Of a DNA stretch of 64,000 nucleotides, positions 1 to 36,867 are shown in pieces (position 1 is the first letter of the stretch; the number at the start of each line of letters is the position of its first letter). The stretch lies in contig CANGHW010000012.1 of NCBI GenBank assembly GCA_947453695.1, positions 1-64,000 of the forward strand. The letters run 5' to 3'. The notes below the pieces were generated by a model, which did not search any database, had not been told where the DNA came from, and saw nothing but the letters and a program-made list of their open reading frames with translations. The position numbers and the translations under genes were made by a program. Origin of the DNA: Opitutia bacterium. Lineage in GTDB: Bacteria; Verrucomicrobiota; Verrucomicrobiia; Opitutales; Opitutaceae.

Positions 1-315
1 CATCCGCCGACTGCGCCGCCGCCAAATCCGGACTGGGCCAAGGCGAGGGAGTGGGACCATCCATGGATGTTAAGGTTAAACGATCGACGGCTCATACCTA
101 AGCAAATAATGCACCATTGTGCGGCATAAACACTCGCTCCGACGCAACCTAAGTCGCCCGCCTCAAGACTAGCTATTATCCCCAGCCCAATCGCCTCCAG
201 CCGACATTCGTCACCCCATCGCCGCCGAACTCCGCCCCGCCGCCCGGGATAACGGAAGCCGAAGCACGGGAAGCCTAGCGCCGCCCGGCACCGCCCCGGA
301 CATGGGGAGCGGTCT

Positions 316-462
316 CTCGGAAGTCCGGAGCATGGTCCCGGAACTTCGGAGCATTGTCTCGGAAGTTGGGAGCGTTGTCTCGGAACTGGGGAGCATCGTC
401 TCGGAACTGGGGAGCGTCGTCTCGGAAGTCGGGAGCATCGTCTCGGCGCCCGGGAGCAAGGT
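316..462. repeat. 21-bp tandem array, about 7 units
   Basis: Units of the form CTCGGAAGTCGGGAGCATCGT-like sequence begin at 337, 358, 379, 400, 421 and 442, each exactly 21 bp. They are preceded by a diverged 23-bp unit at 314-336. The GGAGC core and the CTCGGAA start are the conserved parts; the bases between vary. A much longer array with the same unit length but a different consensus lies at 34547-35722. Seen directly in the sequence; function unknown. Confidence 0.85.
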
Positions 463-556
463 TCCCCCAACCCCAACCGCCTCCCCGCCGGCCCTGCGCG
501 TCCCTGTCCGCTCGCAGTTCGGGGTTAGTGAAGTATCCATCGTCATTTCCCCTCCG

Positions 557-33391: not shown

Positions 33392-33563
33392 TTTTCGTGT
33401 ATTTCGTGATCCCTCCATTCGCGACCTTCGCAACATCCGCGGGCACCCCGCCACCCGCTTCCGACATTAGACATTGGTCATTGAACCTTGGTCCTTGGTC
33501 CTTCGCCGCGTCCCGCGGCGCTTCCGTGTCTTCCGTGTTTTCCGCGTGTTCCATGGGCCACAC
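33392..33563. repeat. Composite dispersed repeat, copy A
   Basis: Parts in order: 9-base units TTTCGTGTA/TTTCGTGAT; a CCATTCGCGACCTTCGC block; GGGCACCCCGCCACCCGCTTCCGAC; CATTAGACATTGG; TCATTGAACC and TTGGTCC units; a perfect hairpin CGCCGCG-TCC-CGCGGCG (33504-33520); and four 9-base units TTCCGTGTC/TTCCGTGTT/TTCCGCGTG/TTCCATGGG. Copy B follows directly with the same order. Similar TTCGTG and CATTAG spacers are common between verrucomicrobial genes as far as I know; the function is unknown. Confidence 0.85.
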
Positions 33564-33564
33564 T

Positions 33565-33721
33565 TTTTCGTGTATTTCGTGTATTTCGTGGTCCCCTCAT
33601 TCGCCCCCTTCGCAACCTTCGCGGGCACTCCGCCACCCGCTTCCGACATTAGACATTAGACATTAGACATTAGTCATTGGACATTGGTCATTGGACCTCG
33701 GTCCTTCTCCGCGTCCCGCGG
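33565..33721. repeat. Composite dispersed repeat, copy B
   Basis: Same order of parts as copy A: TTTCGTGTA units, the CATTCGCC/TTCGCGGGCAC block, CCGCCACCCGCTTCCGAC, four CATTAGAC-type units (33647-33677), CATTGG units and the hairpin CCGCG-TCC-CGCGG (33709-33721). The right part of this copy encodes the last 15 codons and the stop of the DUF2293 gene on the minus strand. Confidence 0.85.
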
Positions 33722-34393
33722 CGCCACCGCCGCGTGCAACGGACACGTCGCGAAATCAATCACCTGCCCCTCGCGATAGCGCGCGAGCAATTGCTTCGAC
33801 CGCGCCGCGAGCATCCGGCGGACCTCCCGCCGCAGCCCCTTCTCGCGTGGGATCGTCATCGAGTCGTAGCCCGTCGTCTGGTGACGCATCCACGCGATGG
33901 TTGCCGCCTCCGCGCGCTGCTCGATCGGGATCCGCTTCGTCCGCGCCACCGTGCCACTGCCCACCGGCGTGGCATGCGCGGCGATCCGCGTCGCCATGGC
34001 CTCCGCGTAGTCCTGATGACCCGGGTGAAACGCGAGATACGCCAGCACCGCGCCCCGAAAATCCTCCGCATAGACCTCCTCGGCCACCGCCCGCCGCGCC
34101 CGCGCCGCGTCGAGGGTGCGCTGGTAGGCCGGATCGGCGCGTTCCACCGCGAGCTCCGCGCGCAACGTCGCAATGCGCTCCGCCGGCGCCCAGATCCCAT
34201 GGGAAAACCGCTTCCGCCCCTTCGGCTCGACCACCGTCCATGTCGGCCCGTCCTCCTTGATGCGACGGCTCAGTGCCGGATCACCCGGCGGCAAGAGGTC
34301 CCAGCCCTCCGGCACCGCGAGGATCTCCCCGCGCACACTGAGCACCTGGCGCGGCAGACGAAACGGACGAACTTCAAGCGTAGGAAACGACAC
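33674..34393 (-). CDS. DUF2293 domain protein
   Basis: About 239 residues from a GTG at 34393; a TTG at 34429 would add 12 Gly/Trp-rich residues. The C-terminal half holds the DUF2293 core: EDFRGAVLAYLAFHPGHQDY, AEAATIAWMRHQTTGYDSM and REKGLRREVRRMLAARSKQLL. The domain's function is unknown. The last residues (RDAEKDRGPMTNVQ) and the stop codon are encoded within repeat copy B, so the natural C-terminus has apparently been replaced or extended by the repeat. The gene stands alone, flanked by repeats on both sides. Confidence 0.75.
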   Translation of the reverse strand: MSFPTLEVRPFRLPRQVLSVRGEILAVPEGWDLLPPGDPALSRRIKEDGPTWTVVEPKGRKRFSHGIWAPAERIATLRAELAVERADPAYQRTLDAARARRAVAEEVYAEDFRGAVLAYLAFHPGHQDYAEAMATRIAAHATPVGSGTVARTKRIPIEQRAEAATIAWMRHQTTGYDSMTIPREKGLRREVRRMLAARSKQLLARYREGQVIDFATCPLHAAVAPRDAEKDRGPMTNVQ

Positions 34394-34546
34394 ACCCCCG
34401 AGCCGAAGCCCCCACCCGCCCCAGCTCAAGCCCGGAACGGCGCCAGCTCACCTGAGCGGGCGAAGATCTCGGCGATGGGAGTTGGGGTCTGGGAAATGGG
34501 AGATAGGGTCCGGGGAATCGGGTCTGGCGGCCGGGGTTTCCGCAAC
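34394..34546. other. Spacer between DUF2293 gene and 21-bp array
   Basis: About 150 bp holding the probable promoter of the DUF2293 gene. It has a G-rich stretch on the plus strand (34474-34540: TGGGAGTTGGGGTCTGGG, then ATAGGGTCCGGGG). I see no protein-coding signal here. Confidence 0.4.
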
Positions 34547-35722
34547 GGCCATCTGGATTCGCGCAAAAGCCAATTCGATTCGCGCAATGACCCTTTCAGT
34601 TTCCGCGCGGGCCATTTCGATTTGCGCAACGGCCATTTCGATTCACCCAAAGCCCCTTTCGATTCGCGCCATGGCCGTTTCGATTTGCGCAACAGCCGAT
34701 TCAAATCGCGCAGAGGCCATTGCCGATCACTTTTGGGCCCGTTAAAGTCGCGCAAAGGCTGTTTCGATCCGCGCAAAGGGCATTTCAAATGGCGCGAAGG
34801 CCATTTCGATTTACGCGGAGCCTGTTTCTGTTTCCGCGAAGGCCAATTCACCTTACCGAGAGGCCATTTGAGACCACCGAGAGGCCATTTCGATTTGCGC
34901 AATGGCCTCTGCAATTCGCGCAGAGGCCGATTCAGTTTCCGCAACGGCCCTTCCTTATCACTTTTTGGTCCTTTCGGATTACCGAAAGGCTATTTCAGAC
35001 CACCGAAAGCGCATTTCAAATTACCGAAAGGCCATTTCCGCTTACCGAGAGACCATTTCCCATCACCCAAAGGGCATTTAGATTTCCCGGAACCCCATTT
35101 CCGTTTCCCAGGAGACCATTTCGGTTTCCAGGAAGCTCATTTCCAAAACTGCGAAGCTCCCGTCCCGGACCGCAAGCACCGCTTCGTCCGCCGCGAATAC
35201 CGCTTCCTCTCCCCCGAATACCGCTTGTCCGATCGCGAATACCGCTTCGCCCGTTTCGAATACCCCTTCGTCCACCACGAATACCGGTTCGTCCGCCACG
35301 AATACCCCTTCGAGCGCCCCGAATACCGCTTGGTCCATTACGAATACCGCTTCGTCGACTACGAATACCGCTCCCCCTTTCCCGACCACCCCTGCGTGGA
35401 ACGCAGAGGCCCCTGCACAGCACGCGGCGGCCGCTTGGCTTCCGTAGCGGCCCCTGCGAGGTCCACCGAGTCCGCTTCGAGCCACGCCGAGGGCAATGCG
35501 AGGTCCGCAGCGTTCACTGGGCCGTCCGCGAGGTATGATCGATCAACCGCCGAGGGCACGGCGGGTTACCCCGAGCACCATGCGAGGTCCACCGACACCG
35601 CTGCGCCGATTGCAGACACCGCTGTGAGGTCCGCAGGCATCCCTTCGCCGACCGCAACGCTCATTTCAGCAGCCCGGTCTCCCCTCCCGCGGACCGCCAC
35701 CCCACTCGCATCATTCGCAAAA
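34547..35722. repeat. Giant degenerate 21-bp tandem array, 56 units in register
   Basis: Unit starts follow 34547 + 21n with no net insertion or deletion up to 35722 (56 x 21 = 1176 bp). Early units resemble GGCCATTTCGATTTGCGCAA; the middle group reads GGCCATTTCNNNTTACCGAAA; units 32-39 (35198-35365) read TACCGCTTCGTCCNNCACGAA. The last units keep only a CCGAG-like end. Positions 3-4 (CC), 7-9 (TTC) and the CGNAA end are the most constant; the middle six or seven bases vary. Because 21 is a multiple of three, several frames stay open across it, which yields spurious heptapeptide-repeat proteins. The array ends against repeat copy C. Confidence 0.9.
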
Positions 35723-35740
35723 ATGCCTCTGCACCGTCCG

Positions 35741-35940
35741 ATTCCGGCATTAGACATTAGGCCTTAGTCATTGGTCCTTCGCCGCGCTATGCGGCACCCT
35801 TCCGTGTTTTCCGCGTCTTCCGTGGGCCACTCTCTTTCGTGTAGTTCGAGTGTTTCGTGGTTCCCCCATTCTCCACCTTCGCCCCATTTCGCGTCATTCG
35901 CGGGCACTTCTGACTCCCGCCCGCGCCCGGCGACCCCGCC
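35741..35940. repeat. Composite dispersed repeat, copy C
   Basis: Starts with CCGGCATTAGACATTAGGCCTTAGTCATTGG, then TCCTTC and hairpin GCCGC-GCTAT-GCGGC (35781-35795). 9-base units TTCCGTGTT/TTCCGCGTC/TTCCGTGGG follow, then TTTCGTGTAG/TTCGAGTG/TTTCGTGG and a CCATTCTCCACC/ATTCGCGGGCAC block. Relative to copies A and B the order is a circular permutation, as expected if the unit is duplicated in tandem. The hairpin is kept although its bases differ from A and B. Confidence 0.8.
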
Positions 35941-36009: not shown

Positions 36010-36867
36010 ATGTCCGCCGTCCTCAACATTTCCACCTACAAGTTCGCGCCGCTCACGGAGCTCGTGCCGCTGCGTGACCGGCTGCGCATCTTCACCGTGG
36101 CCCATGGACTGCGTGGGACAATTCTCCTTAGCACCGAAGGCATCAATCTCTTCGTCGCCGGCCTGCGTGATGACGTGGAGGCGCTCCTCGTCGAACTTCG
36201 CGCCGTGCCCGGTCTCGCAGACCTCGCCCCCAAGGAAAGTTTCAGCAGCGAGCAACCGTTCAACCGGATGCTCGTGAAGATCAAAAAGGAGATCATCGCT
36301 TTCGGCGTCGAGGGCATCGATCCCGCCCGCCGCCCCTCGCCCAAACTCCCCGCGCGCACGCTCAAGCAATGGCTCGACGAGGGCCGCGCCGTCACGCTCC
36401 TCGACACGCGCAATGCCTACGAAGTGAAGCTCGGCACGTTTCGTGGCGCGGTCCCGGCGGGGATCGATCACTTCCGCGACTTTCCCGCTGCCGTCGCCAA
36501 GCTGCCCGCGGAGCTGAAGGACCAGCCCATCGTGATGTTTTGCACCGGCGGCATCCGCTGCGAGAAAGCCGGTCCGTTTATGGAGCGCGAAGGCTTCACC
36601 AACGTGCACCAACTCGACGGCGGCATTTTAAAATATTTCGAAGAGTGCGGCGGCGCGCACTACGAGGGCGAGTGCTTCGTCTTCGACCGCCGCGTGGGCG
36701 TGGATGCAGCGCTGCGCGAGACCGAGGCAAAGCTCTGTTTCAACTGCCAGATGCCCCTGACCGTGGCGGAGCAAAGCGACCCAGCCTACGTGCCCGACAT
36801 CAGCTGCCCGCACTGCATCGGCGGCAAGAAGTCAGCCCACCGCGCGCCCGGTCCCGAAGGTAGCTAA
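36010..36867 (+). CDS. trhO: tRNA uridine(34) hydroxylase TrhO (rhodanese domain)
   Basis: A 285-residue protein of the YceA/TrhO family, which hydroxylates uridine 34 of certain tRNAs as the first step of 5-(carboxy)methoxyuridine formation. An acylphosphatase-like N-terminal domain (residues 1-90: [19 protein letters not shown]) is followed by a rhodanese domain with the active-site loop [11 protein letters not shown] near residue 178. A C-terminal cysteine-rich segment (CFNCQ, CPHCIGG) follows. The gene stands alone, downstream of the repeat region. Confidence 0.93.

Follow-up and report, generated by a model that had tools for sequence, protein, structure and literature searches.

Plasmid iterons and partition centromeres contain direct repeats, each about two helical turns long, that are bound on a single face of the DNA. 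These sites are short, number one or a few per replicon and adjoin the gene of the binding protein. In Borg archaeal elements, tandem repeats are pervasive, lineage-specific and nearly absent from host genomes; the excerpted account describes perfect units, about half of them in ORFs, with intergenic unit lengths divisible by three in only 14-38% (PMC9879509). For prokaryotic intergenic heptamer repeats, the excerpts report a 7-bp unit, no known function and an over-representation of periods divisible by three (PMC6344855). A minisatellite inside a MITE is described, in the part of the report used here, for Porphyromonas gingivalis (PMC4596501). No paper describing the class of arrays reported below was found among PMC open papers, including the best 20 of 337 and the best 15 of 36 matches.

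The locus studied here is a 21-bp array in a stretch of 64,000 nucleotides, referred to as the window. C-numbers denote contigs of the window genome, L-numbers sampled loci and G-numbers genomes of relatives.

Results

The array in the window

A degenerate 21-bp tandem array had been predicted at positions 34547-35722 and proved to be genuine. Autocorrelation over the 1176 bp gave an identity of 0.593 at lag 21, of 0.54-0.56 at lags 42, 63 and 84, and of 0.18-0.34 at the remaining lags within 1-89; lag 7 (0.297) was no outlier. TRF returned a series of rows with a period of 21 or 63 bp. The predicted place was correct, with a start about one unit earlier and an automatic end at 35707, and the predicted drift of the consensus through unit families was seen along the array (Table 1). 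Adjacent units differ by 39%, within a range of 20% to 47% over the 11 arrays measured. The head-to-tail units fall within the size range of minisatellites (~10-100 bp), but the near-identity expected of minisatellite units is absent at this level of neighbor difference. A CRISPR array was rejected, in agreement with the original prediction: the units drift along the full length, and there are no identical repeats with unique spacers.

The prediction of perfect register without net indel did not hold. The register is exact across 42 units only (34547-35428), and a 1-bp deletion near 35449 shifts the units beyond it by -1. In the offset scan, a -1 offset also appears at the corresponding point of the C177, C42 and C68 arrays, which suggests an old slip that probably predates their copying.

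Table 1. Coordinates of the arrays, unit families and flanking genes in the window
Feature	Position	Strand	Evidence or remark
Whole window array, ~57 degenerate 21-bp units	34526..35707	.	Lag-21 autocorrelation, automatic detection, TRF rows
Family A, 20 units, consensus GGCCATTTCGATTCGCGCAAA	34547..34966	.	
Family B, 10 units, consensus GCCCATTTCCGATTACCGAAA	34967..35176	.	
Family C, 11 units, consensus TACCGCTTCGTCCACCACGAA	35177..35407	.	Common to C177, C42, C68 and C32
Family D units, more degraded	35408..35707	.	Unit-by-unit colinear with C177 array as far as 35635
Interval with 1-bp register slip	35417..35456	.	Offset scan: best offset -1, 0.57 vs 0.27
Second 21-bp array, unrelated units (GGGAGC...CTCGGAA)	~284..470	.	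TRF
DUF2293 gene	33674..34429	-	PF10056, 72 bits vs cut-off 25; window array upstream of its 5' end
TrhO (UPF0176) tRNA uridine hydroxylase family gene	36010..36867	+	Pfam; NF001133, 233 bits vs cut-off 170

Flanking genes and the same loci in relatives

The array lies between the divergent DUF2293 and TrhO genes, upstream of both 5' ends. Motifs of 7 bp (CATTAGA-like) and 9 bp (TTTCGTGTA-like) in the intergenic DNA at 33455-33703 and 35738-35882 bracket the DUF2293 gene together with the array; DNA of this type matched many similar places in the genome search. Judged by its TrhO-like protein, the locus has its closest named genomes among MAGs of Opitutaceae and Opitutae. In two relatives (G001 and G008) the TrhO gene is preceded by another gene (MYG1-like, named by eye) without an array, and a 21-bp array at the TrhO locus was found in 0 of 29 relatives (flanks of up to 1.5 kb per side, shorter near contig ends).

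The related array on C177 sits in ~1200 bp of intergenic DNA that separates mutS (named by eye) from the DAHP synthase gene. This gene pair is kept in six of eight same-genus genomes with gaps of ~133, 207, 207, 834, 835 and 858 bp; the pieces from the remaining two genomes did not include mutS. None of the eight same-genus pieces carried a 21-bp repeat. Frequent out-of-phase indels in sister genomes had been named as evidence against the prediction; the sister species searched lack the array and thus offer no indels for comparison. Across the window genome, arrays occur between convergent, divergent and codirectional genes. No binding-protein gene adjoins the arrays among the neighbors with a family assignment at the window, C177, C68, C63, C135 and C20, all of which are unrelated genes.

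Sequence-related arrays

Homologous arrays were found on six contigs, C177 (82% over 458 bp), C32, C42, C68, C135 and C63, and arrays on C169, C5 and C149 are tied to this superfamily via C63. Together with the second, unrelated array of the window, these findings contradict the description of the array as an orphan. Over the 458 bp, each unit of the window array has its counterpart in the C177 array in the same order; the two differ by 80 substitutions and a single 1-bp gap, and the changes are evenly distributed over the units (dispersion 0.84). Further upstream, the alignment is offset by 126 bp, exactly 6 units. On these alignments, copy number in this pair has been altered by whole units. 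Copying between loci has also involved blocks of units, and some near-identical arrays are located at contig ends. The draft contigs C5, C169, C302, C151 and C250 terminate within 21-bp arrays, so the real number of arrays in the genome is probably higher than the count.

The second array of the window has copies on C25, C302, C250 and C151. The C151 sequence (L218 1-1484) matches window 339-123 and 129-1 at 99-100%, interrupted by an element of ~1.1 kb with 87% identity to L014 4939-6053; the split at window 123-129, where the two matches overlap by 7 bp, resembles the insertion of an IS. Flank-to-flank repeats were present in 3 of 20 arrays: C47/L288, the window (dispersed short-motif DNA, 77%) and C18 (60-138 bp, 70-83%). 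The clearest is a 222-bp direct repeat of 90% identity, including a gene 3' end, which flanks a 41-unit array at L288 (15795-16016 and 16997-17217). A fixed mobile element was rejected, as the homology listed between window and C177 ends inside the arrays and 17 of the 20 arrays lack flank repeats.

Outside the genome, the searches gave no sequence relatives of the array. A search of 57 genomes, own included, gave only two others, with weak matches of 27-44 bp. Among the matches listed for 252 genomes of the family (two candidates scored per genome), the own genome was the sole one. The pattern of the C units had 0 matches in contigs of 84,980 species, where own or near records are possibly absent, and viral contigs likewise had 0; no match to the array came from the collections of phages and plasmids. 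A single origin of all arrays was likewise rejected, with only 21 of 171 consensus pairs at p<0.01. These pairs join A, B, D, C and C63, and further C14-C20b, C14-C35 and C1b-C14 (C-C1b, 0.015). The unit consensi thus fall into several groups, between which similarity does not reach p<0.01, and the feature common to the arrays is the period.

Census of 21-bp arrays

For a sample independent of similarity, 61 segments of the window genome, each of 20 kb and together 1.22 Mb, were searched for noncoding TRF rows of at least 60 bp, using crude gene calls of our own that assigned the arrays at L044, L262 and L271 to coding DNA. The period was 21, 42, 63 or 84 in 11 of 14 rows; these 11 fall at 7 of 10 loci, with three rows each at L251 and L266. 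The other three rows, at three loci, have periods of 22, 27 and 39. In eight same-genus genomes (691 kb), 0 of 4 noncoding rows had a multiple of 21 (periods 18, 24, 45 and 49), and three same-family genomes (300 kb) gave no noncoding TRF row.

Automatic detection without gene calls yielded 14 period-21 stretches in 66 stretches (1.32 Mb) of the window genome, plus two in the window. Arrays of at least 13 units numbered 11 in these 1.32 Mb versus 0 in 1.69 Mb of other genomes (p=1e-4). The other genomes (135 loci) had nine period-21 stretches of 7-10 units each, at least one of them genic (L108). The comparison sets omit small contig pieces (L105 in the TRF census; L105, L220 and L223 in the automatic detection). 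The arrays are best read as a species-specific class of dispersed, noncoding, mostly intergenic 21-bp minisatellites.

Helical periodicity of conserved positions

For each array, the frequency of differences between neighboring units was determined in the 21 columns and converted to a Fourier spectrum, which is independent of the unit cut point. The set of 16 arrays includes short arrays and excludes those found by similarity (C177, C32, C42, C68, C135, C63 and others). A 10.5-bp component was present over the 16 arrays, with a Fisher value of 2.4e-7 under column permutation, 2.0e-4 under permutation of three-column blocks, and 3.0e-3 once the best array was removed. A component at 3 bp (k=7) was absent (0.93). 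Nine 21-bp stretches of other genomes showed the reverse, with 6.6e-7 for 3 bp and 0.42 for 10.5 bp. In neutral simulations, 5.3% of p values were <0.05. Because the idea of a 10.5-bp component arose on earlier array sets, the seven arrays outside those sets served as a separate test, which gave 2.0e-4, and 0.035 without L288. Most of the signal was supplied by 5 of the 16 arrays, each at p<0.05.

At the level of the class, constant positions therefore recur each 10.5 bp. The second array of the window showed the component by itself (k=2, p=0.003). For the main window array, p was 0.28 (0.40 with the block null), and the pooled superfamily gave 0.35; the signal thus holds for the class and not demonstrably for this array. 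Spacing that keeps constant positions on one face of the helix, as proposed originally, gains support at class level from the common period, the few slips and the 10.5-bp component, and no significant support from the window array alone.

Indels and register slips

Offset scans of 20 arrays showed no offset run in 12. Near the -1 slip, C177 has three further short runs (-3, +2, -3) and C42 has one (+2); offset runs also occur independently in four further arrays, with one in C32, two in C135, two weak ones in C149 and one weak one in C169. Within 11 arrays, spanning trees over the units gave 1137 changes (lower bound 568) versus 11 offset runs, at least 52 changes to one run.

Indels were also compared between arrays. 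Six close pairs (≥80% identity; C25 and C63 each used in two) had 181 substitutions and 1 indel, and all 13 pairs of ≥80% identity had 260 substitutions and 2 indels. The control from a sister species, one region of ~20 kb with crude gene calls, gave 316 substitutions and 19 indels in intergenic DNA and 1453 and 8 in genes; an earlier measurement on part of it gave 22 substitutions and 3 indels. With pairs that overlap, the difference from intergenic DNA had p=0.0017 for the six pairs and 6.6e-4 for all 13. The 18 pairs at 67-79% identity, with 1484 substitutions and 58 gaps (26 to one), barely depart from the intergenic ratio; their gaps are perhaps partly misalignment, since differing unit order invites false gaps. 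BLAST pieces prefer gap-poor alignments, which weakens the test from the opposite side. Indels are scarce in close array pairs and not in distant ones, and the argument from indels for exact spacing holds for the close pairs only.

DNA bending

Curvature was calculated with a wedge model. Against dinucleotide shuffles, the window array had z=1.8, and others reached 11.1 (C19), 4.5 (C68), 4.2 (C31), 3.6 (block D) and 3.0 (C63). High values are not specific, because any 21-bp repetition lifts the measure. A bend signal under column permutation (Fisher 2e-4) vanished with dinucleotide content fixed (0.99, 16 arrays). As the permutation alters dinucleotide content, the signal was discounted and an intrinsic bend was rejected. 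The placement of dinucleotide steps over the 16 arrays was phased (AA/TT, 2e-4; WW, 6e-5). Of the phased bending suggested at the outset, the AA/TT placement is retained and a net bend in the wedge model is not.

Discussion

The arrays turn over like minisatellites and, as a class, resemble phase-constrained DNA in what is conserved. They are dispersed and noncoding, with units that drift or are unrelated, few slips and constant positions every 10.5 bp. Our main reading, to which we assign a probability of roughly 40%, is selection on helical phase, through a putative protein on one face or through phased flexible or bent DNA. The period would be maintained because a unit covers two turns of the helix and presents the same DNA face every turn. 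That face may be offered to a putative DNA-binding protein of the nucleoid type, which probably oligomerizes; alternatively, the array may act as a phased flexible or bent stretch. The sequence would be free to drift and the phase would not. An extension of this proposal, which we regard as doubtful, is that the arrays would be genome-wide, sequence-free, phase-locked scaffolds, where nearly any intergenic sequence is tolerated if it repeats every two helical turns and a putative oligomerizing protein reads the phase.

Neutral turnover has about the same probability as selection on phase. The arrays would then be minisatellites that change by slippage and unequal exchange of whole units, with the period spread through array DNA that was copied and then diverged, and with no selection on phase. 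This agrees with the six-unit (126-bp) difference between the window and C177, with the copying of unit blocks between loci, with the mixed orientation of the adjacent genes, with the absence of an array at the mutS-DAHP synthase junction of sister species (gaps of ~133-207 bp in three) and with the near-intergenic indel ratio of array pairs below 80% identity (58 gaps, 1484 substitutions). However, indels are too rare in the close pairs and slips too few within arrays, one period is common to unrelated units, and a 10.5-bp component is not expected from neutral change. A protein-coding origin ranks third and is unlikely. The arrays would encode, or have encoded, coiled-coil-like heptad-repeat proteins; 21 bp correspond to 7 codons, and 10.5 bp, or 3.5 residues, to the a/d pattern, so such an origin could yield the same 10.5-bp component. 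The indel ratio of close array pairs resembles that of genes (8 indels, 1453 substitutions), and L262 3004-3741 is a 245-codon ATG ORF across the array with hydrophobic heptads and 0 stops versus 4.3 in column shuffles. C63 has 0 stops versus 4.4 and 5.0 in two frames, one frame of the 42 in-register units of the window has 0 versus 3.4 (p=0.01), and the pooled column classes of the superfamily tend to a codon-like order (permutation p=0.08). In the window array, more than one reading frame is free of stops. The missing 3-bp component, present in the nine stretches of other genomes, and the stops disfavor heptad coding as the source of the 10.5-bp signal. The superfamily (178 units) has 9-41 stops in every frame, so a single frame open across the arrays, which the original prediction had named as evidence against itself, did not arise. 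L288, with the strongest 10.5-bp signal (40 units), has 3-7 stops in all six frames, the codon-like tendency seen on comparing the window with C177 stems largely from one column (12 of 80 changes), and three window ORFs had no Pfam match. A heptapeptide-repeat gene was rejected for the class, which has no single open frame across arrays and no codon-position pattern of variation. Some arrays have a long open frame, L262 being the clearest, and the rejection thus applies to the class and not to each array; individual arrays such as L262 may be translated now or may have been formerly.

The other two alternatives are less probable still. That the arrays are relics or passengers of a mobile element that spreads them is highly unlikely, although an integron integrase gene (L015 4374-5702, C63; TIGR02249, 371 bits vs cut-off 265) lies directly upstream of one array, another array adjoins an IS66-type transposase gene, and near-identical arrays occur at contig ends. 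Flanking DNA is common to C63 and C169, and also to C177 and C1 (L009 8568-8735 and L018 9552-9719; 168 bp, 89%, inverted); the latter is perhaps a fragment of some element moving with the arrays. On the other side, the listed homology between window and C177 stops inside the arrays, the phage and plasmid collections had no match, and flank-to-flank repeats are missing from most arrays. A structured RNA or hairpin array, with a TTCG-N-CGAA dyad per unit, has next to no probability. TTCG...CGAA can be read in the sequence of many C units, and the predicted fold of the C63 array is more stable than those of its shuffles (z of -2.7 on one strand and -4.2 on the other), but covariation is absent: pairing within units was 213/324 versus 209.0 +/- 2.9 after shuffling, and no compensatory changes were found in the C units, within or across units, or in the A and B units. 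Fold-energy z values of four window blocks ranged from -2.6 to +1.6, and Rfam gave no match up to E 0.1.

Sequence identity is the usual yardstick for tandem arrays; what distinguishes the present ones at class level is a common period and conservation that follows the helix and not the codon. If this is true in complete genomes, selection on DNA phase becomes testable from sequence, and the finding indicates a putative binding protein that could be retrieved using the array and shows a genome-wide repeat class arising within one species.

Among known systems, iterons and partition centromeres are comparable as direct repeats of about two helical turns. Helical phasing is indicated here by the 10.5-bp component over 16 arrays and not by the window array alone (p=0.28), and the present arrays differ in occupying many loci beside unrelated genes. 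The MITE minisatellite of P. gingivalis, as excerpted, is similarly dispersed, whereas a comparison of the window and C177 copies revealed no common ends (PMC4596501). Intergenic heptamer repeats, in the excerpts of their description, are comparable as an intergenic period without known function, but lag 7 is unremarkable in the window array (PMC6344855). Borg repeats resemble the arrays, in the part of the account used here, in being pervasive and lineage-specific in one genome; the units here are worn, and one period is dominant (PMC9879509). Bacterial minisatellites and VNTR loci are alike in their intergenic head-to-tail units and in copy changes by whole units. In contrast to these, neighboring units here differ by ~39%, one period extends across unrelated arrays and, for the class, conservation follows a helical period.
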